A stretch of DNA of 44,620 nucleotides from a virus. Shown here piece by piece: positions 8 through 28,238 of this stretch; within the stretch, counting starts at the first letter, position 1, and the number at the start of each line of letters is the position of its first letter. A program made the position numbers and the translations under genes. The notes beneath the pieces are model-generated. The model searched no databases. It was not told the DNA's origin and saw only the letters and a program-made list of their open reading frames with translations. The stretch is taken from IMG/VR virus record IMGVR_UViG_3300044619_002245, positions 1 through 44,620 of that record. One strand, 5' to 3'.

Positions 8-3000
8 TTAGTCGGCTAGAACTTCGCGGGGTGCGGCCGAGCGGCGGGCTTGGTTGTAAGCCGAGACGCGGTCGTTCTTCCCGCGGGAGCGAACCAAGTC
101 GATGCTTTGCTCACTGGCGTCATAGGGCTTGTAGATGCCCGTGGTCACCATCTTGAGGGTGTCCTTGCCAAGACCCCCGTCGCGCAGGATTGCCTTGGCG
201 CGTTGCACAGAAACCCCGAGGCGGATCGCCGCGAGGTAATCCTTGCGGATCGCGTCGATCAGGCTGCGGCGGGCCGCGTTGGAACGCTCGTAGCCGTCGA
301 TCACGTCGCCGGCCGAGCGGGTGCCTTGGCTGGTGAACTCGCGGTTGAAGAGGGCCGAGGCATCGCGCATCTCGCGCATGAAGCGGGAAGACTTGAACTG
401 GAGGGCCTGCTGGGCATCGACCGAGGAGACCCGCTGTCCGGCCACCACGCTGCCAATCTCGTTGAAGAGGTTGTAGGCGCGACCCGTCTCGCTCTCGATT
501 CCAAGGGCGGCTTTGCCGATCCTCTCGGCACTGTTGACCGTGCCAGGAACGAAAGGATCGTAGAAGATCTTGCGGGCCACGTTCAGACCGATGTTCGCTC
601 CGGTGTCTTGCGGGTTGTAGACTTGGCGTCCCGCCGCGTCACGGTTACGCATTACGTCCATGATCGCTCCGGCGAAGATTTGCTCGCTGGTGAAAGGATC
701 GAGAGCCTGGCGCACCATGCTCATCGTCCCTTGCAGAAGGATCTCGTCGGCGCTGTCGGCGTTGCGGAGCGATCGAGTGAAGGCGACCAGCGGCTTTTTG
801 AAATACTCGTAGGGATCGAGGAAGCTGATGTCGACGAAGTCGACCTCACCATTCTCTTTGCGGAAGAGGAGAAGCTGACTGTTCTTCTGCCAGTCAGGCA
901 GGAAGCGGCGAAGATCCTCTTCGTCCTCTCCGGAGATTCCCGCCATTGCCATAGCAGCAGAGCCGACAGCGGCGGGGAGAAACGCTGCGGTTGCCATGCC
1001 GCGAACACGCTTCCAGCCGATCGCTTCCAGTTCTTTGTTTCCGCTGGCGCGGCCTTCGGTGATTTCCTGATTGGCCAGCTTCATCAGATTGTAGGTCGTG
1101 CGGATAACCTCACTCGTGAAGGTCACAAACGGAGCGATGAAGGGGAACTTCTTGAGATCCTGCACGATGGCCGGAGCCAGCGAGTAGGTCCAGTGGATGT
1201 CGCGGGCGATCTCGGCGGCTTTCTCTTTGACCTTGTTGTCATCCCAGTCGGGATAGGCTTGGCGGTATTTGTCCTGCTCGGACTCGTAGATCATCACCTT
1301 GAACCAGTCGTCACCCGCCGAGTAAGTGCGCGTGGCAAAGTCGGCCACCTTCTTGAAAGGCTCGGCCACCTTGTTCCAGACGACATCGCCGAAGTCGGGG
1401 CTTCCGGCCTTGCGGCTGGCGGTCAGAAGGTCTTCAAGGAGTCCGGTCGTGATTGACTCACCAACAATGCCGCGGCGGATGTAGTCGTCGATCTTCACCC
1501 GCCACTCGGCGCGGCTCATGTTGCGGTATTTGTTGAACGTGTTGGCCAGCACTGTGTCAGTCGAGTTTCCGAAGCGGCGAGAGAAGTCACCGCTGGCGAT
1601 GTCGCGCAGACCCAAGTTGCCCGTGGCTACGAGGTTGAGGTAGTTGCCCAAGTAGTTGCGGATCTGCGAAGCCACCGATCCGACTGTCTTGGTCGCCATC
1701 GAGATACCCGTCAGCTTCATGGCCGAGCGCAGCCACCAGTAGTGCTCCTCAGTCGAGCCGACAGGGAACATCTTGAAGAGACCTTCGGCCAGCATCGGGT
1801 GGGCATACATGCCGCCGAGCGGGGCAAGCGTCGGGTTGTTCTCGGTCGAAATGCGGACGTAGCCGGGAGGATGACGGGTGTCGTCTGGATTGTTCTTCGC
1901 GCTCCAGAGCCAGCCTTCTTGGATACCCAAGTCGCGCAGTTCTTTGAGGAAGTTGTCGTTGGCGATGACGCTGGAGAGCTTCATCACCGTCTTGGCGTAG
2001 TTGACGCTCGGGTCTTCATAGCGTCCCCAGAGGGCTTGGATCTCCGGCGCGATGTTGCCGCGCTTGTAGAACATGCTGAGATTCTTCTGCCCTGGGACGC
2101 GGCCGGAGAGCACCTCGATCGTCGGGGCTTCTTGGCCCACGGCCAGATAGCCTTCGAGGATTCCCTCGACTTCCTCTTCGGTAATTGATGCGTTGGCCAT
2201 CGACTCGGCATCGGCTCGCGAAAGTGTCCGCCCCTCGGCTGCGGCATCGTCGATCAGTTCGGCGGCTTTGTTTCTAGCCAAGCTGACGTGGATATACTTG
2301 CGAGCCGCATCCATGACCTTGGCGTTTTTACGCACGCGATCAGACCACTGCGGGTCATCGAAGATGGCGTAGCTACGATTGAGATAAGTGCCGAGCGCCT
2401 CGTCGACGGTGATCGCCAAGTCGCCGTTGACCAGACCCTCGTTCGGCAGACGGCGCGAGAGTGACTCGATGTGCGCCGACATCTCGCGGATCGTCGCGGC
2501 CAATTCTTCAGGCAACTGGGCCAGGGCTTGAGGTTGCTTGGTCTGCTTGAAGTTGCGGCGGTTCTCGCGGATATACTGGTCACGCTTCTTGGCCGCTTGG
2601 TTAGTCTGCCCGCTGGCCCGCATCTGCTCGATCTCAAGTATCTGCTGCGAGGTCAGCGGGTTCTCCAAGTTACCCAAAGCCGTGTTGATCGTTTCGAGCG
2701 GCGGCGTCTCGCCCTTGTAAAACGTCTTCATCTGACGCTGCAAAAGGCGGGAGAGTTCTTGAATCACCGCGATATCAGCTTTGATCGCCATGCGGCTGGC
2801 GCGGTATTTGTCGCCGGCTTGTTTATCGAGAAGCTCGTCGACGGCAAACATGCCGCCTTGGGTGATCTTACCACCCGTCGGTGTGTTGCGTGTGGTCGAG
2901 CGCCAGACGCGACCGCGTGCCCTGCTCTGTGAAACCTGAACCGTGTCGCGTGCACCCTGATCCGTTGTTACGTTGTTATTACGGCGCTTCGTGCGATAGA

Positions 3001-6000
3001 CCAGCCGAGCGTAGTCGGCGTCATCTCCGAGCGCGTAACCGTTTTGCTTGAGCCATTTAACCCACTCGTCTTCAGACAATGTTTTCCATGCTTCGGTGAA
3101 CTCGTTCTCCTCGGCGGACGGGGTCTGTGGTTTGATCGTCTTGGTCTTCGCCGTCTTGACCGCCTTCTTCACCTCCGGAGGTTTCGGAGGGGTTTCTTTT
3201 TTGGTCTCAACCTTCTTTGGGGTCTCAGACTTCTTCTCCTCGACTTTCTTGGTTTCGACCTTTTTGGGGGGAGTCGGCTCGGCTTTCTTCTCGGGCTCGG
3301 CAGCTTGTTTGGCTTGAGCCTTCTGCTTCTTAGCCGCTTGCTTGCGCGCTTTGCGGGCCGGAGCCGTTTTGGGGTTTGAGTTCAGGCTGCTCCACTCAGC
3401 CAAGAAACGATTACGCTCCTCGGTTGTGCCGGCCAAATTCTCCTGCTCGATCCGCGCATCGATGAATGACTGGATCTCTGCCAGCTTGGCGAGTTCATCA
3501 GCCATCGCCGTGCGGCGGACTTCGGGGATCGTGTAGTCGCCCAAGTTGAGATCGGCTCCGGAGTTGGCGAAGGTGACCATCCAAGAATCCTTGAAGGCTT
3601 TGGCCAGAGGCGAGTTGGGATCGGCTTTGACTCCGGTAATGAACTGCACCAAGGCGTCCCAAGCGTTCCTCAAAGCCCCAAGCATGGTGACCTTGCCTTT
3701 GCCCTCACCGAACCCGAGGCGCACCATGAGATCGGCGAGTTCAGGGTTGCTCGATACTTCGACAACAAACTCATCCAGGTTCTCCAGCGAAGCCAGTGAG
3801 CGATCGGCATCCAGACCCAAAGCTGGGTCGGATAGATCCACAAGCTCTTTGGTGAGTCTTGCTACATCGGCATCGGTCGGCTGGTCAGGCACATTCAGTT
3901 TGCGGTCGCGGGCAGCGCGAATCACCGTCTCGCGGCGGATGCCTTCCAAGCGGTCGAGAGCTTCCTGCTCCACGCGGTTGAGTGGGATCCGGCGGGCGAC
4001 TTTCTCTTTGAGAACAACATGCTGAAGCTCGTGCAGCATCGTGTTGACTGCGCTGTCACGGTCATGGACGGCGTCCAAGTTGATTGAAATGTTGTAAGCC
4101 CCGCCGCTGCCAGTGGTCAGTCCGGCCCAAGAGGTATCAGGGCCGAAGCGTCCGATTTGAATCCCGACGTTGTTGAAGTTAAGCCCGCGGCGGGCCAGCT
4201 TCACAAACTCCCGTGCGCGGAGAGACACGTCACGCGGCATCGATCCGGACACGGCCACGCGATCCAAGAACGTGCTGGCATCCGCGAATGCGCCACTTCT
4301 CAACAGCGACCCCAAGTTGTCACGGGCGGCATTGACTGCGTCCCGGTTAGCTTGCTCGGTGGCAAGTTCGGCTGCGGCTCCGCGCAGCAAGTCCAAGCCC
4401 GAGCGGCGTGCTAAATCGGCAACAGATGCCGCGGTCGATCCGATTGCTACGCGATCAGCCGATGCCTCGGCAGGGTCGCGTTCGTTGAGGATGGCTTGCC
4501 GAGCACGATCAAGCTCGGCATCGGAAAGCGAAGTTAGCTCCGCGTCGGTTAGGCGGGCAAAGGACTGGACGAATCGTCGGGTAGTAGCTCGGGCTCTTGC
4601 TCGGACGGCTTGGGGGTCAAGAGGTGCTGGAACGCCAGATCCTCCATCACGCTGAACGGGGGCTGTCTGAACAGTTCCGGCTGCTCCTTGATCAGATCCG
4701 CCCACACGGTCTGATCCCCGCTGACCGCTCGTTCTTGCAGTTCCGCGGGCAACTGATCGAGAAGCTCCGGATAATACTTCTCCAGGGCTCGTCCGGCCAG
4801 CAGTGACAGCACCATCGGTGACGGCGGCGTCTCCTCCTCCTCTTGGGGCGTTAGGGTAGATGTCTTCATAGTTTAGTTCTCCTGATATAAATCGTTCAAT
4901 TTCAAGGGCTCGTCTACGTTGAGCCGCTTTGAGTCTACTCTTTTGACCATAAACTGTCTCCCCTTGTTCATTTTCCAAGAACGCTCGGTTCCTGAGAACA
5001 ACCTCTAGGTCTTCGTCAGCAAGCTGAAGGATGCGGTCGCGGCCTTCTTCTCTGGCTTCGATAGGGTCACCTTTTGGTTTGTTTGCTTTCTCTTCCTTTT
5101 TGGCAAGCTGCTCGAAAGGAGAATCTGAAACATCCTCAGTGCCGGATTTCTGGATGTCTCCTGCTTGGTCGCGTTGTCCGATAGCTTCTGGCGGCTTGGC
5201 TTTTGTGCCTTGCGGAGCTTGAGCCCCACGCTCGATTGGCGAATTGGCCGCGTCACGACGGATGGAACGCTTGGCCGAGAACGCTGCACGAGTGGCGATA
5301 CCGATAGGGTTGAACCGCCCGAGGCGGCGATAGCGATCGGCCACTTGGTTGATAGCGCGAACCACCTCACCCCGTTCCCGACCTTTAAGCCCGTCGGTAA
5401 ATTCTTTTTCGAGGATCGTCTTGGCTTTGTTGAGCATCCCCGCCGTGCCCTTTTCAATCCGGCCGAGGATTTGCTTCTCGATGTCTTCACGGGATTTTCC
5501 GGAGAGGGCCTGACCTTCCAAGAAATTCTCTAGGTCTTCAAAGGCTTGCTTCTGCACCTCGTTCGGGTTCTTGGTCAAGCTGCGCTGTGAAGTGCCAAGT
5601 TTCTCTAGCGACCGCTCGGGACTTTGTTGCCGCACGCTGCCGAGAGCTTTTCCCGTCAGACGATTGACCCGCGTTTGAGCCGAGCGAATTTCTTTCGATC
5701 CGCGCACATCACCATAAATCGAGGAGAGTGCTTTGTCCTTGGCTTGCGCCAGTTCTTCAGCCCGCAACTCGGCCAAGACTTCGGTTAGACGTTTAGCAAT
5801 TTGATCGCGACCTTCATTGCGGAAAGGCGCACCACGGCTGGAACGGGCAATCTTCTCGTAAGCCAAGACGATCTTGTCCTGGGCAATCTGCTGGGCCAAC
5901 CGCTTCTCTTCGTCGTTGAGACCCGAGTTCTCCAAGAAGTCCGTAGCTCGCTCAAAGTCATTTTGGTAAAAAGAGTTTTCGACTGGGTCGAGTTTCTCGA

Positions 6001-8647
6001 TATTGCCGGCCACGCGGCGAAGCTGCTCCTCCAGCGGACCGCCTTGCCTTGTCTGAGCACCTTGGCGACCGGCTTCACTGGCGGCGATACGCTCGGGCGA
6101 GTTGCGATAAATGTCGTCAAAAATCCATAGCCCCTGTTTGCGCGACTTGCTGCCCTTTGAGGTTAGTGGGCGATCCACTGAGAAGTCGGCTGGCGTTTTC
6201 CCACGGCGATAAGTGCGCCCCCACAAATTGACCGCCGTGACGATGTTCTTACGGCCACCTTTCTTGTTGCTGACCGACTCGACCTGGATGTCGGGGTTGA
6301 GATCAGCCAACTGGTCGTCCGGCACTTCGACCCCCAAGCCCTCGTTCATCTGGAAGACCGTCGTCAGCGGAGAATTGGTGAACTTGCCTTTGAACGTCGG
6401 GATGACTGTGCCCTTTTCGCCCTTCTTGTTAAACCACCTCACCAGAACGGGGATCGGCCCACTGCCCATCCGGTTGCTGATCGTCGTTTCTTGTGGAGCC
6501 CCCGCCCCCGTAAATGGAGATCCCAAGGCTTGCCCAGCGGAACGCTTGTCCGGATTCGTTCCGAGCAATTCACGCATCGTCTCCTCGAAGGGACTGACAA
6601 GTGGGCGCGTATCAGCATCAGGCTTCGCCAATGTGACGCGGTTGAACTGTTCTGGTCGTAATTCAATTCTCCCCTGCGCGGGTCCGATCGGGCCGCTGGC
6701 GCGGGGACTTAGTTTCGAGACATAGAAAATTGCGTTGCCGTTGTTACGCCGTCCGGCAAAAACCGCGGTGCTTTCGGTGAACCCCTCCTCACCAGGTTCA
6801 GCGCCGAGGGAGGCGATGCTGACGCGGCTTTTTCCCTTTTCCAAACCGTCGACAAACGACTTGGCTTCATCCGGCCCACGCCCAATGGCGCGACTCCAAT
6901 CGAGCATCCGTTGGTTTTCGCGTTCGCGGCGGGAGTTTTCCACGGCAATACGCCGTTCCATATACTTCAAAGCAAAGGGACTTTGGCGGCGGCGTTCTTC
7001 TTCGGTGTATGCATCATCGATAGTCCGCGCCGACTCTTCGGCGGACTTCACGGGAACATCGATACCGAGACCTTCCTCAAGCTCCCGAAGTTCCGCTGGA
7101 GTATCGAGTTGATCCTCTTCATCAATATCCTCCTCGGCAGCGTTCTGCTGTTCCGGCGGAGCATCTTCGAACTTGCCCTCGCTTATATCGCTTAGAGCAC
7201 TTTCAGCTTCATTGATGAGCCAAGCATTGTTCTCCCCCGCAGCGGCACGCAGCACCACGACGTTCGAGCCGTCTTCAAGAGTGTTGCGAGGAGCAGCAGG
7301 ATCCAAATCTTCCGGAGGGTTAATCGCCGCCCAGACACCGGAAGCACTTTTTCGCATTGTGATCCCATTAACATCGACAGGCTGAGACCACTGCCCAAGC
7401 AAAGCAGCGCCGGGTTCCGCTTGATCTTCTTGCTTTTCTCCGCGTTGAGGTAGCTCCCGCAGCTTTGCCGCCGTCTGCGGAGCCAGTGCTTCGATGACAC
7501 TACCAGCCCCACCGAGGCCAGCACCAACCGTTGCGCCAGCCGCAGCAGCGATCCGGCGCTCGCGCTCGGCTTCGGGAGTCCCGATTACTTCCTCGATCGT
7601 CCGGTTCGGATCGGCAGCACCGAGAGCGGCTTGCTCTAACCCCGTCTGCACATACTCAGTGCCACCTTCGAGACCCGCCGCAGCAGGGAGCCCGACACCC
7701 ACGCTGCGCCCCACGCGGCTTGGGAGTGACATCTCTGCCGCTCCGGCAGCAGCCCGTCCCGCCTTAGTGAAAGGCTTGAGAAATTTTCCGGCAATGAAGA
7801 CTTCACCCAGCGTATCGAGCGCGGCACCGGGAACCGCAAAAGCCGCCGCGGCTGCGGCGTCACCCTCACCCGTTTCTTGTGCGATCTGACCAAAGCTACC
7901 ACCGGCAATCTGTCCGAAGTTGGCAAGATAAGCCCCAGCGATTCCACCTTTAGTCGCGGCGGCTCCCTCGGACATGAGCACGCCTTGAGCCACCTTTTCC
8001 GCGACTTCTTTGCCGGCTTGTTTGGTAAGTTCCCCGCGAGCCGCGATCTCCGCTGCCTTGCTGGCGAACTCACGTCCAGCCATCCCCGCTGCGACACGCT
8101 TGCCAATCTCATTGGCGACGACTTTTTTCGCCACCGTCTTGGCCGCAAAGCCACCGATACCGCCGCCGATCGCCGAGACAAGAAGCTGGGGAAGCTGCTC
8201 GCCAATCAATCCAGCCGCATAAGTAGCCGCGTCCCCCGCGTCCTCGATCTCCTCAAAAGGATCCCTGACAGAAGCCTCGCTCTGCGCGGCCTCCTCCATC
8301 TTGCGGACGTAATTCTCCAGCCCGTATTCCTCGATTCCTTCCACCCCGAGGCTTTGTCCGATCATCCCGAGGAGCCCGTATCCAAGTGCTTGGGTCTGAT
8401 CGACGCCGCGGTCGATGCCGATGCCGAACTCTTCGCCGAGGGAGCGTTCAGGCGCGGGGTTTAATACAGCCCCCCTAATGGTCGCTCTTGAGAGAAAGTC
8501 TTCTACCGGAACGACTAAATCGTCGTCCTCTTGGACAGTGGTAGGGGGGCTAGTAGGCGTTGAAAGACGGTAGAAATCTTCGACAGGGACAACTACGTCC
8601 TCGGAAGTCTCGGTTGCTGCATCGTCCTCAAGGTCATACCAAGCCAT
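8..8647 (-). CDS. Giant internal/ejected virion protein (large polyvalent protein with zincin motif)
   Basis: 2879 residues, last gene of the late block. The N-terminal few hundred residues hold two short acidic repeats (VVPVEDF) and Gly/Ala-rich, partly hydrophobic stretches. A metallopeptidase motif HELQH lies at about residues 1539-1543. A Lys/Pro/Glu linker with repeated KKVETKK-like units covers about 1770-1845. The last ~580 residues (from about 2300) resemble, from memory, the large polyvalent protein-associated domain LPD38 found at the C terminus of phage ejected proteins. Known of the family: such proteins sit inside the capsid and enter the host with the DNA. Inferred: it is injected and its zincin domain cleaves a host or virion target. 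ATG start; stop TAA at 8-10. The product class is fairly secure from position and architecture; the exact domain assignments are not. Confidence 0.75.
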   Translation of the reverse strand: MAWYDLEDDAATETSEDVVVPVEDFYRLSTPTSPPTTVQEDDDLVVPVEDFLSRATIRGAVLNPAPERSLGEEFGIGIDRGVDQTQALGYGLLGMIGQSLGVEGIEEYGLENYVRKMEEAAQSEASVRDPFEEIEDAGDAATYAAGLIGEQLPQLLVSAIGGGIGGFAAKTVAKKVVANEIGKRVAAGMAGREFASKAAEIAARGELTKQAGKEVAEKVAQGVLMSEGAAATKGGIAGAYLANFGQIAGGSFGQIAQETGEGDAAAAAAFAVPGAALDTLGEVFIAGKFLKPFTKAGRAAAGAAEMSLPSRVGRSVGVGLPAAAGLEGGTEYVQTGLEQAALGAADPNRTIEEVIGTPEAERERRIAAAAGATVGAGLGGAGSVIEALAPQTAAKLRELPQRGEKQEDQAEPGAALLGQWSQPVDVNGITMRKSASGVWAAINPPEDLDPAAPRNTLEDGSNVVVLRAAAGENNAWLINEAESALSDISEGKFEDAPPEQQNAAEEDIDEEDQLDTPAELRELEEGLGIDVPVKSAEESARTIDDAYTEEERRRQSPFALKYMERRIAVENSRRERENQRMLDWSRAIGRGPDEAKSFVDGLEKGKSRVSIASLGAEPGEEGFTESTAVFAGRRNNGNAIFYVSKLSPRASGPIGPAQGRIELRPEQFNRVTLAKPDADTRPLVSPFEETMRELLGTNPDKRSAGQALGSPFTGAGAPQETTISNRMGSGPIPVLVRWFNKKGEKGTVIPTFKGKFTNSPLTTVFQMNEGLGVEVPDDQLADLNPDIQVESVSNKKGGRKNIVTAVNLWGRTYRRGKTPADFSVDRPLTSKGSKSRKQGLWIFDDIYRNSPERIAASEAGRQGAQTRQGGPLEEQLRRVAGNIEKLDPVENSFYQNDFERATDFLENSGLNDEEKRLAQQIAQDKIVLAYEKIARSSRGAPFRNEGRDQIAKRLTEVLAELRAEELAQAKDKALSSIYGDVRGSKEIRSAQTRVNRLTGKALGSVRQQSPERSLEKLGTSQRSLTKNPNEVQKQAFEDLENFLEGQALSGKSREDIEKQILGRIEKGTAGMLNKAKTILEKEFTDGLKGRERGEVVRAINQVADRYRRLGRFNPIGIATRAAFSAKRSIRRDAANSPIERGAQAPQGTKAKPPEAIGQRDQAGDIQKSGTEDVSDSPFEQLAKKEEKANKPKGDPIEAREEGRDRILQLADEDLEVVLRNRAFLENEQGETVYGQKSRLKAAQRRRALEIERFISGELNYEDIYPNAPRGGGDAAVTDGAVTAGRTSPGEVLSGASRSVARGTARTSGQRGSDRVGGSDQGAAGTVQTAPVQRDGGSGVPAPLDPQAVRARARATTRRFVQSFARLTDAELTSLSDAELDRARQAILNERDPAEASADRVAIGSTAASVADLARRSGLDLLRGAAAELATEQANRDAVNAARDNLGSLLRSGAFADASTFLDRVAVSGSMPRDVSLRAREFVKLARRGLNFNNVGIQIGRFGPDTSWAGLTTGSGGAYNISINLDAVHDRDSAVNTMLHELQHVVLKEKVARRIPLNRVEQEALDRLEGIRRETVIRAARDRKLNVPDQPTDADVARLTKELVDLSDPALGLDADRSLASLENLDEFVVEVSSNPELADLMVRLGFGEGKGKVTMLGALRNAWDALVQFITGVKADPNSPLAKAFKDSWMVTFANSGADLNLGDYTIPEVRRTAMADELAKLAEIQSFIDARIEQENLAGTTEERNRFLAEWSSLNSNPKTAPARKARKQAAKKQKAQAKQAAEPEKKAEPTPPKKVETKKVEEKKSETPKKVETKKETPPKPPEVKKAVKTAKTKTIKPQTPSAEENEFTEAWKTLSEDEWVKWLKQNGYALGDDADYARLVYRTKRRNNNVTTDQGARDTVQVSQSRARGRVWRSTTRNTPTGGKITQGGMFAVDELLDKQAGDKYRASRMAIKADIAVIQELSRLLQRQMKTFYKGETPPLETINTALGNLENPLTSQQILEIEQMRASGQTNQAAKKRDQYIRENRRNFKQTKQPQALAQLPEELAATIREMSAHIESLSRRLPNEGLVNGDLAITVDEALGTYLNRSYAIFDDPQWSDRVRKNAKVMDAARKYIHVSLARNKAAELIDDAAAEGRTLSRADAESMANASITEEEVEGILEGYLAVGQEAPTIEVLSGRVPGQKNLSMFYKRGNIAPEIQALWGRYEDPSVNYAKTVMKLSSVIANDNFLKELRDLGIQEGWLWSAKNNPDDTRHPPGYVRISTENNPTLAPLGGMYAHPMLAEGLFKMFPVGSTEEHYWWLRSAMKLTGISMATKTVGSVASQIRNYLGNYLNLVATGNLGLRDIASGDFSRRFGNSTDTVLANTFNKYRNMSRAEWRVKIDDYIRRGIVGESITTGLLEDLLTASRKAGSPDFGDVVWNKVAEPFKKVADFATRTYSAGDDWFKVMIYESEQDKYRQAYPDWDDNKVKEKAAEIARDIHWTYSLAPAIVQDLKKFPFIAPFVTFTSEVIRTTYNLMKLANQEITEGRASGNKELEAIGWKRVRGMATAAFLPAAVGSAAMAMAGISGEDEEDLRRFLPDWQKNSQLLLFRKENGEVDFVDISFLDPYEYFKKPLVAFTRSLRNADSADEILLQGTMSMVRQALDPFTSEQIFAGAIMDVMRNRDAAGRQVYNPQDTGANIGLNVARKIFYDPFVPGTVNSAERIGKAALGIESETGRAYNLFNEIGSVVAGQRVSSVDAQQALQFKSSRFMREMRDASALFNREFTSQGTRSAGDVIDGYERSNAARRSLIDAIRKDYLAAIRLGVSVQRAKAILRDGGLGKDTLKMVTTGIYKPYDASEQSIDLVRSRGKNDRVSAYNQARRSAAPREVLAD
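4549..4869 (-). CDS. Small acidic protein encoded out of frame inside the giant virion gene
   Basis: A 106-residue ORF in another frame of the same strand as the 8-8647 gene. It has a strong Shine-Dalgarno: AGGAGA at 4878-4883, 8 nt before the ATG at 4869. The product is Glu/Pro/Leu-rich with a natural composition (MKTSTLTPQEEEETPPSP at the start, a Leu-rich helical core, an acidic Pro/Ser tail), unlike the Arg/Ser-rich shadow ORFs elsewhere. In the host frame the same bases encode a low-complexity Gly/Ala/Arg/Ser/Thr linker, as expected where a second frame is under selection. Function unknown. Inferred: an independently translated companion of the ejection protein, or a small early-acting factor. 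Confidence 0.6.
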   Translation of the reverse strand: MKTSTLTPQEEEETPPSPMVLSLLAGRALEKYYPELLDQLPAELQERAVSGDQTVWADLIKEQPELFRQPPFSVMEDLAFQHLLTPKPSEQEPELLPDDSSSPLPA

Positions 8648-8686
8648 TAGTAAATGTAGCTGTTAAGATGTTATTACGCAACGCGA

Positions 8687-10126
8687 TCACTTGGAGTCTT
8701 CGTCTTCTTCGGACCCAGTCAACTCGTCCGTAAAGTCTTTGAACCAAGACCCTGAAATCGGCGTGGCAGTTCCAGGAACAAACAAAGAACTACCGACATC
8801 TTTCGTTGACTGGTAGAGAGCGGAAGCCGCGAGGTTGTTGGCTTTTCTCAAGCCTTCGACTGAACCGCGAACCATGTCTTTTGCTACCTTCGCAACGCCA
8901 CGACCACTGGCATCGTAGCCCCGTCCCTCCAGACCTAACATACTTCCCTCTTCCCCGCCTTCACTCGGAGCGACCGTCGGCATTTCATACTTAAATCCGC
9001 TGGCGGGAACTAGGTTCCCACTTTGAGAAATAACTAGAAGCCCAGGATATTTTTCCGCCAACTTTGAAACGCCTTTATTGATACCCGAAATGTTTACGAC
9101 CTCTTTCCCATCGGCGTCTTTTGTGACGAATCCCCGGAAAAATTCATTCATATTCAAAACAGTTCCTTCTTTAGAAGGAACCGCAGCGAGACGCGGGGCC
9201 AAACCAGCAAGTTTGTTCTGCCTCTCAGCCAACATAGAATTGATTTGATCGCGATCATACACTTGCCCATCCGGAGCAGTCCAACGACCGATCCTGCTTG
9301 CAGCTTGAAGTTGTGCGCTCTCATCAACCAAACTGAGCGCGACATTCAAGTCGTTCTCCGGTTCTGCAACCCCTGCCTTGACTAGTAATTGCTGCGCCTC
9401 TTTATCTCGTCCAAGCTCAGTCAGTCCTTTGGCTGCGTTGACCACGTCACTAATTTGTTTCACATCAAAGGATGGGGTTTCTGCCGCCACACCCCCCATC
9501 CAATCACTCGGCTGAACCCCTCGCTTTTCCGAAGCGGCTTTTTCGGCGATAGCTTGTGCTTCGGCCAAAGTAACCCCAAGCACGGGCGCATAGTTCTCGG
9601 CGAAGCCGCGGGTGTATTCGTTGACAAGGTTCTGCCGCATTTCTGATTTCATCGGGCCATCAGTGCGGATGGAAAAGTCCCGATAATCGTCGGCGAACAT
9701 TCTCCACGCTTGTTGCACCAACTCCGGCGGCAAGCCCTGGGGTTGGGCCGCTTCACTGACGCCAGAGGATTGCCGCTGGGCGATCTCCATCTCACGAGCT
9801 TGTTCTTGGCGGACGCCACTGGAGTCTGGAAGATCATCAAACAAAGTCCGGTTGGTTGGTGTCAAAAGATCTAGCGTTCCCGCATAATTTTTATCTGGGG
9901 CAGGAACATTGCCGATATTTGCTTGGGAGGTTGGCCCGGGCTCTACTGACGCAAGCGATCCTTCAGGTATTGACGCAAAAATTCCTTGAGCCGCCCGCGA
10001 ATTGTCGTCGACCGGCGTCATCTGCATCTGCTTCCAACGACCGCGTGCCTCGTCGTAGATATCGTCGATATCATCGCCTTGTTTGCGCCCGTATTCTTGG
10101 GCTACGAATTGTTCAAAAGCAGTCAT
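8687..10126 (-). CDS. Probable internal virion/ejection protein
   Basis: 479 residues, soluble and acidic, with no membrane segment and no motif I recognise. It sits between two other putative internal proteins and the giant ejected protein, the position of internal core proteins in podoviruses. Its ATG overlaps the stop of the upstream gene as TAATG (10124-10128), indicating translational coupling. The start MTAFEQFVAQEYGRKQGDDID and the Gln/Ala-rich helical middle fit a core or ejection protein. The C terminus is acidic (ends GSEEDEDSK). Function is inferred from position only. Confidence 0.6.
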   Translation of the reverse strand: MTAFEQFVAQEYGRKQGDDIDDIYDEARGRWKQMQMTPVDDNSRAAQGIFASIPEGSLASVEPGPTSQANIGNVPAPDKNYAGTLDLLTPTNRTLFDDLPDSSGVRQEQAREMEIAQRQSSGVSEAAQPQGLPPELVQQAWRMFADDYRDFSIRTDGPMKSEMRQNLVNEYTRGFAENYAPVLGVTLAEAQAIAEKAASEKRGVQPSDWMGGVAAETPSFDVKQISDVVNAAKGLTELGRDKEAQQLLVKAGVAEPENDLNVALSLVDESAQLQAASRIGRWTAPDGQVYDRDQINSMLAERQNKLAGLAPRLAAVPSKEGTVLNMNEFFRGFVTKDADGKEVVNISGINKGVSKLAEKYPGLLVISQSGNLVPASGFKYEMPTVAPSEGGEEGSMLGLEGRGYDASGRGVAKVAKDMVRGSVEGLRKANNLAASALYQSTKDVGSSLFVPGTATPISGSWFKDFTDELTGSEEDEDSK

Positions 10127-10590
10127 TAGTCCCCCGTAAGTCCGGTTCCTAGTTTTTTGCTGCCCCCGCCACCCGGCTTTAAGGCTCCGCTTTGGTAGGC
10201 TTGAATAAGACTTGCAACCCCGCCTCCGTAACGGCTGGATGGCGCAGCCGGTCCCGCAGTAGCTCCACTGGTCTGCCCACCACTAAGACCGCCCGATTTC
10301 AAAAATTGACGACGGGCATCGATTTCCTCATTCATCAGCTTGTAACGACTCGTGAGCATTTCCGAATCATAAGCAAGTTTTTTGAGATTGAACTCGGCCT
10401 CGGCCCGTTTCTGCGGGAGTAGAATTTGGGCAAGCTCCTGGTCCAAAGCCATCTTCTCGTTGGCACGGCGATTCTCTTGCGCGTTGTTAAAAGCCTCCAC
10501 AAACGTGGCCCCAGGATTCCAATTCCACGGCGGGGCCGCGGGTTCGAGGGCCATTTTTACGAGGTTCGGGTCTATGAAAGAGGATGCCAT
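10126..10590 (-). CDS. Small virion-associated protein, possibly internal
   Basis: 154 residues. The N-terminal half is predicted helical and charged (NNAQENRRANEKMALDQELA); the C-terminal half is Gly/Ser/Ala-rich. It ends in TAA overlapping the ATG of the next gene (TAATG) and begins 4 nt from the stop of the 607-residue upstream gene, so it belongs to the internal-protein operon. No family recognised. Similar small Ala/Gly-tailed helical proteins occur among podovirus ejection genes, but this is positional inference. Confidence 0.5.
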   Translation of the reverse strand: MASSFIDPNLVKMALEPAAPPWNWNPGATFVEAFNNAQENRRANEKMALDQELAQILLPQKRAEAEFNLKKLAYDSEMLTSRYKLMNEEIDARRQFLKSGGLSGGQTSGATAGPAAPSSRYGGGVASLIQAYQSGALKPGGGGSKKLGTGLTGD

Positions 10591-10593
10591 AAA

Positions 10594-12417
10594 TTAAGAC
10601 TTATTGAACCAAGCATTGTATTGAGGCCCGCCTTGCGCCGCCGGAGTAGACAGATACGATCCCCCACCAAAACTCCGCCCACCCATGTTACTCCAGTTCT
10701 GACTACCGAGGAACGAACCCGCCAAAGACGAACCTGCTTGGAGCGCGGAACCCCAAAGCTGGGCCGATTGCATCGCCCCCGCGTTACGTTGGGCCGCTGA
10801 GATTACGGGAAGGTTTGCCGCTGTCGCAGTGTTTCCGCTAATCAGGCCAGCTATAGCCTTCATAGCTTCTGTGTTGTATGCAGCCTCTGCATTCATAGCC
10901 GCAACAGCAGCGTCGGTTTTTCCCCCAAAAATATTGCTCTCAAGCCCAAGCCGCGTTTTATACACAGAGTCGGTCGCGCCCGTATTTGTTTTATAAATAT
11001 CACCTGCCACAGACAATCCCGTTGAGAATGTCTGCCCCGCGGTTCCGATGCTGGTATTGAATATGGTATCCGCCAACCCGAGTGTGTTGTTATAAATGTC
11101 CTGGGTTGCGCCCATCCGCATACCCGTGGCGCGGATGTTGGCGTCACGGGCGTTTGCATTCATAGTGGAAGCTAGAGTCATGTCTTGGCCGCGCAGCGTA
11201 TCGGCAACCCCCATGTTTGCTCCAAAAAGCCTGTCGAAGGTCTGCAACCTCTGCCCAGAGGCTTCCTGCACCGCGCCCAGACGCTGATTGCGGTCACTCT
11301 CAGCAACCCCAATTGTTGAGTTCAACAAAGCGTTTTGTCCGGCACGCATTTCGCCGAACATGTTGGTTGCGGTGTCCTGGACGCCTGCAACGCGGGTGTC
11401 GTAGTTGAGTTTGCGCTGTTGCTGGTTCATGTCGAAACCAGTCTTCATCAGATCAAGCGAAGTCAGACCCAAGTCACGGGCAGTCAGCCCACGCCCCATC
11501 TCGCTGGAAGCCCCGAACCCACCCTGCAAAGCACGCATCGCGCTGGAACGTGCCACGTTCGCTTGCATGTCAGCCGAGATCCGACCGCTCATCATCGCGG
11601 CGGCGTTTTCGTCGGCCAACGCGGAAAGCTCTAGCGCCCGAGGATCGGCTTCGGCTAGAAGCTGCTGGCGGGTCTGGAAGACGCTTTTGGAGAGAGCATC
11701 CAATGTGGATGTTGCATTTTCCGGAGAGATGAACTGCTCGAATTTCCCAAGCGCGGCGTCGGCTTTGGCTGTGAATTGATCGCCAAGCGACATCGACTCG
11801 GCTTTTGCCGCGTCTATTTCGGACAACGATTTTTCTTCGTAGTCCGTTTTTGTTTCCGCGACCCTCTCAAGAAATTTATTTTCGGCAACCGACTCGTCTT
11901 CGGCCAGTTTGGCATTCAAAGCATCCTCAAACGAGGAATAGCGGGAGATTTCTTCTCCCATGTCTTTAGCATAACCGGCATTAAGTTCCTCAACAGTTGT
12001 TACCAGAGTCCCGAGAGCTTTTTCAACGTCCCCGTTGAACGTATTGACTAAAGCACTTGCGCTGTTAATCAGATCTTCATTAAAGATGCCAAGGTTGTTC
12101 CAAAAAGTTTTAGTTTCTTCGTCTGACGCTGATCTGAGTTCGTTGGCGTATTTGTCGACTTTTTTTAGTGTCCCTGCTGTGATGCCGCTAACATTGTATT
12201 GAGAAATCGCCCCCTGGAGTTGGCCCAGCCCTTCAGCCAAGATGTCTTTGATTTGTTTGGTGTTGATGCCACCGCCACCTCCACCTCCATCCGGCATAAA
12301 TAGACCGCCAATAAATCCAGCACCCGCGCCTATGCCCGCTCCCCAAGGGCCACCTATTGAACCACCAATAGCGGCACCTGTTCCTGCTCCTGCTAAACCT
12401 CCTGTTAAATTAGCCAT
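10594..12417 (-). CDS. Internal virion/ejection protein with glycine-zipper N terminus
   Basis: 607 residues. Residues 1-50 are a Gly/Ala-rich glycine-zipper-like membrane-active segment (GAGTGAAIGGSIGGPWGAGIG) followed by a run of eight Gly. The rest is long, helical and Ala/Gln/Asn/Thr-rich with many MxxxGM-type repeats and no Cys. Known: T7-like and P22-like ejection proteins are helical and often carry glycine zippers that help form a transmembrane conduit. Inferred: part of the DNA ejection channel. Start: ATG 12417, 3 nt after a perfect GTAATAACCGCAT element. Confidence 0.65.
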   Translation of the reverse strand: MANLTGGLAGAGTGAAIGGSIGGPWGAGIGAGAGFIGGLFMPDGGGGGGGINTKQIKDILAEGLGQLQGAISQYNVSGITAGTLKKVDKYANELRSASDEETKTFWNNLGIFNEDLINSASALVNTFNGDVEKALGTLVTTVEELNAGYAKDMGEEISRYSSFEDALNAKLAEDESVAENKFLERVAETKTDYEEKSLSEIDAAKAESMSLGDQFTAKADAALGKFEQFISPENATSTLDALSKSVFQTRQQLLAEADPRALELSALADENAAAMMSGRISADMQANVARSSAMRALQGGFGASSEMGRGLTARDLGLTSLDLMKTGFDMNQQQRKLNYDTRVAGVQDTATNMFGEMRAGQNALLNSTIGVAESDRNQRLGAVQEASGQRLQTFDRLFGANMGVADTLRGQDMTLASTMNANARDANIRATGMRMGATQDIYNNTLGLADTIFNTSIGTAGQTFSTGLSVAGDIYKTNTGATDSVYKTRLGLESNIFGGKTDAAVAAMNAEAAYNTEAMKAIAGLISGNTATAANLPVISAAQRNAGAMQSAQLWGSALQAGSSLAGSFLGSQNWSNMGGRSFGGGSYLSTPAAQGGPQYNAWFNKS

Positions 12418-15521: not shown

Positions 15522-16022
15522 TTATTTTACTTTCCAGAGCTTGATCGTCGTGCGTTGGTCGGCCCCTGCGGTGGCCAGGGTAAACACTGTTCCATCTGTT
15601 CCATTATCAATGGTGGCTGTAAATCCTGCGGCGAGCGCAGTTAATTCAAACGCGGTCGAAGCGGCAATTTTGAATTGGCCGTTTAACGTCGCGGGGTTAC
15701 TTGAGTTTGATGCTTTCCCCCCGGAACGACCTCGCGATATCCAAGTCCCAGCAGTTGTTCGTAACCCCAGCATAAGGACCGCTCCGTTAGCGTCAGCCCT
15801 GCGGTAATTGGCGCTGGCTTCAAAATAATACGTTCCGGCCGGAAGCGTGAATTGATTGCTGACGGGCGCACTCACCAGGTTACCCGTGTCTTGCACCTCG
15901 GTATCGATGCGTAGCGGAGTAATTGTGTTTATCGGGACTGAATCACCTCCGGTATTGGGCGCACAAACCCAAGCGAATTCAATGTATTCTGGGGCGTTGT
16001 TGTATAAGGCACTTAGGTTCAT
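15522..16022 (-). CDS. Head/tail fibre-like beta-sandwich protein
   Basis: About 166 residues. The pattern (FTLPAGTYYFEASANYRR, later GTWISRG and FELTALA) resembles the C1q/TNF-like jelly roll often found at tips of phage fibres. There are two possible starts. ATG 16037 would overlap the upstream gene by 19 nt. ATG 16022 has a GGAG nine bases upstream and is preferred here. The C terminus ends TTIKLWKVK, typical of such domains. Inferred: a virion surface protein. Confidence 0.55.
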   Translation of the reverse strand: MNLSALYNNAPEYIEFAWVCAPNTGGDSVPINTITPLRIDTEVQDTGNLVSAPVSNQFTLPAGTYYFEASANYRRADANGAVLMLGLRTTAGTWISRGRSGGKASNSSNPATLNGQFKIAASTAFELTALAAGFTATIDNGTDGTVFTLATAGADQRTTIKLWKVK

Positions 16023-17296
16023 ATATAAATTCTCCATCCTATTGTTGCACCTTCGTAGCGTAACACGAACTGCTTTCCTCCCGCTTGGTCGCAGACCAAG
16101 TTTTCGGCCAGTCCGTTGATTTTGTCAGACCCGCCACGGGCAATCGTGAGATTGTTGGTCGACCATTTGTCGTAATGGTCAGCAAATGTGACTTGGGTAT
16201 AGTTGGCCGGAGTCGTCGGGAGCGTGATGGTAAAAGCCGATGTGGTTGTGTCTGCCACAATCCGGTCGCCTGCTACCGCAGTATACGCCGCTGTCTTCGT
16301 CGACCACGCATTCAAGCCGACAGAACCGGCGAACTTGGCGTTGGTGATATTTCCATCCTTTATTTTTGAAGTCTCCACTGCATCGGTAGCCAAACCGGCA
16401 GCAGCCACTTGACCAAAGCCAAGAGATGTTCCACTGCGCCGGAGCACATCACCGTCGCTGGCGGCGACAATGTCTGCGGGATCGGCAGAAGCATTGGTGC
16501 CGTTACCTATGACCGAAAAGCCGGCGCTGTCGCGCAATTTGGCGTTGGTTACCGCGTTATCGGCGATTCCCCCAGTCGTTATCGAGCCAAACCCGAGGAC
16601 TCCTGAAGCTCGGCGTAAAACTTGATCGTCCGCAGAAGAAGAAATGTCCGCCACATTGCCGGAGGTATTGGCACTTCGGCCGACCACAGAGCAAGCGCCA
16701 CCAGTTCGAAGTTTGGCATCGGTCACCACATTGTTTTGAATCGTGGCCGCGGCGGTGACATTGGCACTTCCGTTGAAGTTGACGTTCCAAGCAATATCAC
16801 TGGTAGCGGCGATGTTTCTCGTCGTGACCAACTGAGTTGCAGTTGTAGAGTTGCCTGTGATTGTGGCATTGATCCCACCATTGGCAGTCAATGCACCGTT
16901 GACGGTCAAAGTGCCAGTGATTTGGTTTCCGGTTCCGGTAACGGTAAGAGTTCCAGTCGAGGTGGATCCGGTAGTCGATATTGCTTGGCTTCCGAAATTG
17001 GGATTGATCTTTGTTCCGTCAATCGCGGCGTTGGAAGCCACTTTCGCGTCGGTGATACTCGAGGCAGGAACTACATTGCTAAGTGTGAGGTCTTTGAGAG
17101 CCGAACCGTCACGGACCACGAGCACTTCAGAACCACTGGATGAAGCGGCAACGCCCTTGGCCGAAAAAACCCTCGCCGTAACTTGATCGACAGTGGCTTT
17201 GAGCACCGATCCACTCTGTTCGATGACTATTGTGTCGTTGCCGACCGATGAGGCAGCGTCCAAACCGGACGGCTTTTTGTTGGCGGTATAGGGCAT
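16019..17296 (-). CDS. Tail fibre protein with repetitive beta shaft
   Basis: 425 residues. The middle consists of short Thr/Ser/Gly/Asn repeats (VTDAKLRTGG, AVTNAKLRDS, VETSKIKDG, NITNAKFAG), the spaced 'D/NAKLR' pattern of trimeric phage fibre shafts. The C-terminal ~70 residues contain WSTNNLTIARGGS and end WRIYI, a domain shared with the fibre protein at 26526-28238 (FDTNNLTIARNGS). ATG 17296 follows an acGCGgtTATTAC-type junction element on the opposite reading. Likely a host-binding or appendage fibre. Confidence 0.65.
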   Translation of the reverse strand: MPYTANKKPSGLDAASSVGNDTIVIEQSGSVLKATVDQVTARVFSAKGVAASSSGSEVLVVRDGSALKDLTLSNVVPASSITDAKVASNAAIDGTKINPNFGSQAISTTGSTSTGTLTVTGTGNQITGTLTVNGALTANGGINATITGNSTTATQLVTTRNIAATSDIAWNVNFNGSANVTAAATIQNNVVTDAKLRTGGACSVVGRSANTSGNVADISSSADDQVLRRASGVLGFGSITTGGIADNAVTNAKLRDSAGFSVIGNGTNASADPADIVAASDGDVLRRSGTSLGFGQVAAAGLATDAVETSKIKDGNITNAKFAGSVGLNAWSTKTAAYTAVAGDRIVADTTTSAFTITLPTTPANYTQVTFADHYDKWSTNNLTIARGGSDKINGLAENLVCDQAGGKQFVLRYEGATIGWRIYI

Positions 17297-26525: not shown

Positions 26526-28238
26526 TTACCACGTTGCGATGGCTGCGCGTTTCCATGTGTTTGCCGCCGTGCAGACGTAGATGTAGTCGGCGTCATAGCG
26601 GATATCGCCAGCCGTGCCTGTGGCTCCTGTCGTGGCGGGTGCTGTGCCTTGTGCGCGAAGCTGTGCGTCCATGACGCTGTAAGCCGAATCATCCGCGAGC
26701 CTAACTTGCAGTGCGGTGCTGCTACGTTTCAGCGCGGGGAAGCTGGTGGTGTCACCGCCGAAGTTAATCCTGTTGAAATCAGTCGTGTTGCTCTGAACGC
26801 GCAATATACCAGCACCAACACGATTAAGCTGTAAATCGCGTGTGCTGCTGTTTGTTGAGCCATCTGTCCATGCAACAAAGCGTCCGTTCGCAACTACAAC
26901 TCCAAGTCCGTTAAAAAGACCGCAATCGGATTGTGCCAACACTGCATTGGTTGCAGAAATGTTTCCAACTCCAGAGGAAATGGTGACTCTTGTCACCCCA
27001 TCCGTCTGGAACTCCAGCGCACGCGCCGTCCCGCCGCCCGATCCCTTCTCCGTGCCGATCTGGAGAATATTAGAACTCCACCGCAGGAACCCGCGCTCAA
27101 AATTCGATGCGTCCGTGTAGGTATTGTATATTCGGAAGGTTTGGGCTGCGGTTCCGTTGCGCTGGCCGAGGGTGTTCGCGGCATCGTCTCGTAGCAAAAT
27201 AAGGTCGCCAGCAGTAGTTCCGCTCGCAACGCCAAATTGAAGTGAACCAGAAATTCCTACAATGCTATCAAAGTTACACCCTACTCCACCACCAGTTCTG
27301 GTTCGTATATTCCACCCAAAACCAGAACCACCAACGCTTATGAGCGGAGCGGGAACGCTACCAGACGCATTTGCTGTAACTGTAAACCGATTGACGCCCC
27401 CTACTAATAGCTCAAGCAACCTGCTTGCCGATCCGCTTGTGGTGTTTGTTATATCAAGCCGCAAACCTGTAAACGTCGTCGCCGCATTATTCCAAGTCTG
27501 CGCCAAATCAAGCACAGGCGCACTCGCCGTGAGCGTGCCGTTGTTGGCCGTCAGGGTCGTGAATCTCCCCGTATTCGGAACCGAACTACCGATCGGATCA
27601 GGCGAAGCAAAGTTGGTCTTGTTGCCGAAATACGGAACCACTTTCCACCCCACCGTGGAACCAACATAGACCAGCGCGAAGGCGGCATCCTCGACATTGC
27701 AGTTCATATCCTCGGCCAAGGATTCGATGTTCGATCCGTTGCGGGCGATGGTGAGGTTGTTGGTGTCGAAGGTTCCCGCATAGTCGAGCACGGTGATCGT
27801 GTCGCCATTCGACGGGGTCGCGGGCAGGGTGAGCGTCCATGCTGCGCTGGTCGTGTCGGCGGCGACCTTTGCGCCATTGATGAGGGTCTGGGCCGTGGTG
27901 ACGACGGTGTAGTCGATCGGCTCGGCGGCGACATCGCTCGATCCCAAGGAAACATTCCCCGTCTGCCCATTGACCGAATTCACGGGGTAGTCGCCGCCGT
28001 ATTCCCAGTCGGTCGCCCGGACGCCGGTATTGTTCCTGCGAATCCAGATGCCTGCTTGTCGTCTGTTGACGAGCCAGACGCCGGTGGAACTTCTCACTAA
28101 GAAACTAGCCCCAACCGCCGGATCGCCGATCGTCTCAGGTAAGTCGGCAAAGGTCTCGACCTCGCCTTCAAAGACTACGGCACCGCTTGACCCCGTGATG
28201 TCGAGGTTTCCGGTAAAGGGGTTGAAGCTCCAAGCCAT
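26526..28238 (-). CDS. Tail fibre protein
   Basis: 570 residues. The N terminus MAWSFNPFTGNLDITGSSG is a common start of phage fibre/appendage proteins. Next come a collagen-like-free beta domain (FADLPETIGDPAVGASFLV, WLVNRRQAGIWIR), an NLTIARNGSNIES domain (about residues 155-215), a Thr/Asn-rich shaft and the FPALKRSSTALQVRLA module. The C terminus (GDIRYDADYIYVCTAANTWK) is the 'tip' seen in many phage fibres. It is coupled 1 nt after the preceding stop. Confidence 0.7.
   Translation of the reverse strand: MAWSFNPFTGNLDITGSSGAVVFEGEVETFADLPETIGDPAVGASFLVRSSTGVWLVNRRQAGIWIRRNNTGVRATDWEYGGDYPVNSVNGQTGNVSLGSSDVAAEPIDYTVVTTAQTLINGAKVAADTTSAAWTLTLPATPSNGDTITVLDYAGTFDTNNLTIARNGSNIESLAEDMNCNVEDAAFALVYVGSTVGWKVVPYFGNKTNFASPDPIGSSVPNTGRFTTLTANNGTLTASAPVLDLAQTWNNAATTFTGLRLDITNTTSGSASRLLELLVGGVNRFTVTANASGSVPAPLISVGGSGFGWNIRTRTGGGVGCNFDSIVGISGSLQFGVASGTTAGDLILLRDDAANTLGQRNGTAAQTFRIYNTYTDASNFERGFLRWSSNILQIGTEKGSGGGTARALEFQTDGVTRVTISSGVGNISATNAVLAQSDCGLFNGLGVVVANGRFVAWTDGSTNSSTRDLQLNRVGAGILRVQSNTTDFNRINFGGDTTSFPALKRSSTALQVRLADDSAYSVMDAQLRAQGTAPATTGATGTAGDIRYDADYIYVCTAANTWKRAAIATW

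Follow-up and report, generated by a model that had tools for sequence, protein, structure and literature searches.

A probable out-of-frame gene inside a giant virion-protein gene of a phage

The DNA analyzed here (the window) is the whole 44,620-nucleotide stretch of IMG/VR virus record IMGVR_UViG_3300044619_002245. Its minus strand carries a giant gene, and within that gene a second ORF lies in another frame directly before a conserved domain. The features of the locus are as follows; related contigs are denoted by L numbers.

8-8647, minus strand: giant virion-protein gene, 2,879 aa, containing the nested gene
4549-4869, minus strand: putative nested gene of 106 codons and a stop codon, running from ATG to TAA in frame +1 of the giant gene
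4878-4883, minus strand: AGGAGA Shine-Dalgarno (SD)-like site, 8 nt from the nested ATG at 4869; identical in the six nearest contigs
4540-4927, minus strand: stretch over which the window and L002 scarcely differ at host-frame synonymous sites, beginning about 20 codons 5' of the nested ATG
3548-4552, minus strand: conserved domain of the giant protein immediately following the overlap, called metallopeptidase-like from its HExxH motif; limits approximate
4019-4033, minus strand: HELQH (HExxH) motif, giant-gene codons 1539-1543; LDEFVVEV, about 85 codons on, contains a candidate third metal ligand

A first-pass annotation of this DNA had reported a 106-codon same-strand ORF with an AGGAGA 8 nt before its ATG, an acidic product and a low-complexity linker in the host frame. 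All four are present: the ORF lies in the +1 frame of 8-8647, its start region reads AGGAGA-ACTAAACT-ATG with the hexamer at 4883-4878, the 106-residue product of roughly 12-kDa has a calculated pI of 4.2 and a charge of about -13, and the host frame is rich in G, A, R and S over the overlap.

The C-terminal region of the giant protein matches PHROG 22602, 'virion structural protein' (E = 8.7e-30), and phage structural proteins including a homologue in Cellulophaga phage phi18:3 that was annotated from virion MS/MS; tail-protein and terminase genes are also present in the window. From the PHROG 22602 and phi18:3 matches, the earlier label of a giant ejected protein is plausible. An HExxH motif occurs in the downstream domain of 16 of 16 giant genes carrying the nested ORF, followed in many by an LDEFVVEV-like motif. 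Because no Pfam model reaches its cut-off in this domain, the term metallopeptidase is taken from the motif. The domain resembles the zincin-like metallopeptidase domain of polyvalent proteins, which occur in phages and conjugative elements (Iyer et al. 2017, PMC5512222), and the host protein is like them in being very long, encoded amid virion genes and equipped with an HExxH domain. A further similarity is a distant relative that carries an ADP-ribosyltransferase annotation and has a DdrB-like ParB gene beside it. Polyvalent proteins are thought to be injected along with phage DNA, some with self-processing (PMC5512222). The word 'overlapping' is absent from the main text of that study, and we found no nested gene described there.

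The ORF and its SD-like site are of little weight by themselves. Of 2,000 synonymous reshufflings of the giant gene, 477 (24%) produced a +1 opening at least as long as the nested ORF, an upstream anti-SD match as strong as that of the nested ORF precedes 6 of the 99 ATGs of the window's giant gene, and most giant genes of the group contain at least one additional ATG-started +1 ORF of at least 85 codons. Thus, given the shuffles and the ATG counts, the two features together do not exceed chance, and length and openness, not being significant in synonymous shuffles, were rejected as evidence for a gene.

Viral contigs were searched with the nested protein and then with the C-terminal region of the giant protein, and the nested protein or its profile was compared with the sequences found. 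Six contigs matched the nested protein at 90-99% identity; the giant C-terminal search added L015, L018-L021, L063 and L125-L129. The nested ORF is thereby encoded in 17 uncultivated-phage contigs of several lineages besides the window (18 in total), which represent 16 distinct giant genes including the window's own, the giant proteins of L002-L004 being identical. All 16 have the ORF in the +1 frame, starting with ATG and ending just 5' of the same downstream domain, and identity to the window's nested protein drops to 25-29% in the most distant carriers. The frame is unbroken by stops in every one of the 16, contrary to the breakage that had been named as counterevidence. In L001 and L006 one codon is deleted from an acidic run, a change that preserves both reading frames.

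Outside this group there was no sign of the nested ORF in 55 more distant non-redundant giant genes (at least 1,500 codons, not all complete; about 26-31% identical at the C terminus). L058, whose distant giant gene has an HExxH domain related to this one, allowed no test of co-occurrence, its contig ending near the expected site. No stand-alone copy of the nested protein was found in the annotated phages or the bacterial and archaeal genomes searched, and in the collections searched the protein never occurs without its HExxH domain and linker. The carriers all form one related group, and this strict pairing is also expected from shared descent alone. Two weak candidates elsewhere were set aside: a GDQTVW-motif match in an apparent portal protein of L014, an isolated 23-residue match judged to be chance, and HTVC027P gp86, which adjoins the giant gene of that phage (E = 0.29) and seems to be a different, membrane-anchored protein.

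Evidence that the frame is under selection comes from synonymous sites of the host frame. As the first-pass annotation had suggested, constraint was measured on aligned relatives, here as the share of conserved host amino acids encoded by a different codon in the overlap versus 250 codons on each side (Fisher test). Between the window and L002, 3 of 93 such codons differed in the overlap versus 152 of 352 in the flanks (0.03 versus 0.43, p = 7e-16), a strong extra constraint; between the window and L005 the counts were 6/96 versus 167/356 (0.06 versus 0.47, p 3e-15). The dip was repeated in two other lineages, by L015-L021 (6/56 versus 131/307; 0.11 versus 0.43, p 2e-6) and by L126-L127 (12/65 versus 106/201; 0.18 versus 0.53, p 8e-7). 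The lowest-divergence 80-codon window of the entire gene fell inside the overlap for four of five pairs, the exception being L126-L127. At synonymous sites, then, the linker does not vary freely, the other outcome that had been raised against dual coding. L018-L019 and L127-L129 were too close, with too few changes, for the synonymous test.

Synonymous divergence could also be depressed by a DNA signal or RNA element at this site, or by local recombination, with the +1 ORF incidental. Such explanations would accommodate the reach of the low divergence from about 20 codons before the ATG (4869-4927) to about 10-15 codons beyond the stop, and a low-divergence stretch near the N terminus of L126-L127 indicates that local homogenization may happen. 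Several results oppose them. Over the overlap, host amino acids still diverge by about 11% (9-13% across the window's clade, where synonymous sites differ by 3-6%); recombination would lower both, and recent recombination is therefore not the sole cause of the dip. RNA structure near the nested start is nothing unusual (z = 0.1). Substitutions track codon position in the nested frame: the bulk of the differences in the window's clade sits at host codon position 1 (third position in the nested frame), and in 9 of 9 pairs nonsynonymous changes of the nested frame fall below the expectation for random placement (per-pair chance 0.006 to 0.21, the pairs not all being independent). The nested protein moreover aligns across lineages at 25-55% identity without stops. 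This frame-specific pattern largely refutes all of these explanations, and we consider them exceedingly improbable.

Three local observations accompany these measurements. The constraint over 4869-4927 (minus strand) exceeds what an SD site needs, and nested coding does not account for it. At about codons 80-220 of the L126 giant gene (L126:1055-12376), synonymous divergence from L127 is below that of the overlap, reflecting recent exchange or some other constraint. L018:4893-5219 and L019:5376-5696 share 67% host identity in the overlap and 96% in the flanks, where local recombination or fast evolution is possible.

Comparison of the two frames on the same DNA indicated which of them dominates. 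For four distant relatives, nested versus host-frame alignment scores were 238 versus 200, 219 versus 188, 146 versus 108 and 153 versus 86; the maximum nested-frame score among codon-shuffled nulls was 90, and in none of about 40 other alignment windows per pair did the +1 frame beat the host frame. In 10 of 11 genomes (all but L125), codons of the overlap match the usage expected of the nested frame more closely than that of the host frame, opposite to what the remainder of the gene shows. Read in the nested frame the overlap has the codon usage of a gene, and read in the host frame an abnormal one, so that the host linker appears to be the passive partner; the earlier proposal that its low complexity is a residue of dual coding gains support from the same contrast. 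We read the nested gene as the constrained one and the linker as its passenger. The host frame over the overlap would need only to stay open and to encode a flexible linker joining two parts of the giant protein.

Collectively, these comparisons of related sequences lead us to assign a probability of roughly 0.93 to the reading that 4549-4869 is a true coding gene lying out of frame within the giant virion-protein gene; very probably, then, one DNA segment specifies two proteins here. Internal initiation is the simplest reading of how the frame is entered, and the most likely one: ribosomes would start at the nested ATG on the giant gene's mRNA, aided in the window's clade by the SD site, and yield a roughly 12-kDa acidic helical protein. 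A +1 frameshift during translation of the giant gene, with the ORF as the end of a shortened giant protein, is a second conceivable route, since the host is a giant virion gene and 16-44 open codons precede the ATG in some members. In the window and L125, however, the frame is open for one codon only 5' of the ATG, leaving frameshift entry little room and requiring a shift at or after the start; furthermore, every member retains an ATG, and within the window's clade the SD at 8 nt does not vary. We judge the frameshift route highly improbable. A strong SD is confined to the window's clade, and L015, L063, L125-L127 and L129 have no SD-like match at the start. SD strength was accordingly rejected as family-wide evidence, and in the members without an SD, initiation would be SD-independent or coupled.

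An AlphaFold2 model of the nested protein (pLDDT 72.5) predicts six short helices in a bundle with disordered ends. Residues G51, D52, P64 and D77 are invariant, and E65, F67 and A79 are also highly conserved. The first-pass annotation had proposed a search of phage protein collections, with a divided outcome: homologues exist in the 17 uncultivated-phage contigs, and no significant match was found in Pfam, PHROGs, NCBIfam, PDB sequences or annotated phages. Matches to SDHAF2 sequences in the PDB (E about 0.1) were disregarded, and fold searches of the PDB and BFVD with the model gave best E values of about 1.6-2.6, which are meaningless. Given the lack of a fold match and the moderate confidence of the model, the position of the gene is what remains to suggest a function.

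That position points toward the giant protein, because the nested gene would be translated from its message and always lies directly before the HExxH domain. We tentatively suggest, at about even odds, that the nested protein acts on the giant protein as a co-translational chaperone or packaging partner, or regulates the metallopeptidase-like domain next to it. It would then be a partner, presumably made late, of the giant virion protein or of that domain. The more specific proposal of a protein dedicated to inhibiting or chaperoning the metallopeptidase-like domain whose coding sequence follows its own is rather unlikely. If true, an injected protease and its safeguard would occupy two frames of a single DNA segment, where recombination could not easily part them. 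A real nested protein might instead have nothing to do with the giant protein and serve as a late anti-host or anti-defense factor, for example an acidic DNA mimic. The low pI (4.2) and charge of about -13 would suit such a role, as would the quick variation between L018 and L019 (67% host identity in the overlap versus 96% in the flanks), which is as in arms-race proteins; many anti-host functions have also been found on polyvalent phage proteins (PMC5512222). The invariant or nearly invariant core residues, by contrast, suggest a fixed fold or partner, and in the collections searched the protein is always found with one HExxH domain and linker and never alone. An unrelated anti-host factor is thus a possible but doubtful alternative to a role on the giant protein.

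Three known systems offer comparisons. In phage lambda, the spanin gene Rz wholly contains Rz1, a small same-strand, +1-frame gene with internal initiation that encodes a lysis lipoprotein. The arrangement here is alike in its same-strand +1 nesting and proposed internal start, whereas the nested protein is acidic and predicted helical, has no recognizable lipoprotein signal and is encoded inside a giant virion gene. The lambda C and Nu3 genes also yield a small protein from inside a gene with a peptidase part, as proposed here for a peptidase-like one; an internal start in C produces the assembly protein Nu3, which is in frame and forms the C-terminal part of C, whereas here the frames differ and the products share no sequence. 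Genes B, E and K of phiX174 are overlapping genes with out-of-frame dual coding and double constraint in a tiny ssDNA genome under size pressure; the out-of-frame dual coding is shared, but the present case is a tailed phage whose related contigs reach about 73 kb. Literature searches found no description of a nested gene of this kind.

Gene finders discard long same-strand overlaps, and nested genes of tailed phages are rarely seen with such comparative support. The nested gene contributes a protein family that none of the databases checked contains, and it indicates that a hidden gene can carry the low-complexity linker of a giant phage protein as its passenger. Synonymous dips over linkers would make a cheap scan for further genes of this type.

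Two minor observations concern genes outside the overlap. In L043:1-11334 (Pseudoalteromonas phage vB_Pun_Y3), the homologue of the giant C-terminal region is a separate gene, 8251-11334, annotated as an ADP-ribosyltransferase and adjoining a 10-kb gene annotated as DdrB-like ParB; the giant protein is perhaps split there. In the window, the minus-strand genes at 16019-17296 and 26526-28238 both match PHROG families 31104 and 4302 and may share a tail-fibre-like module.
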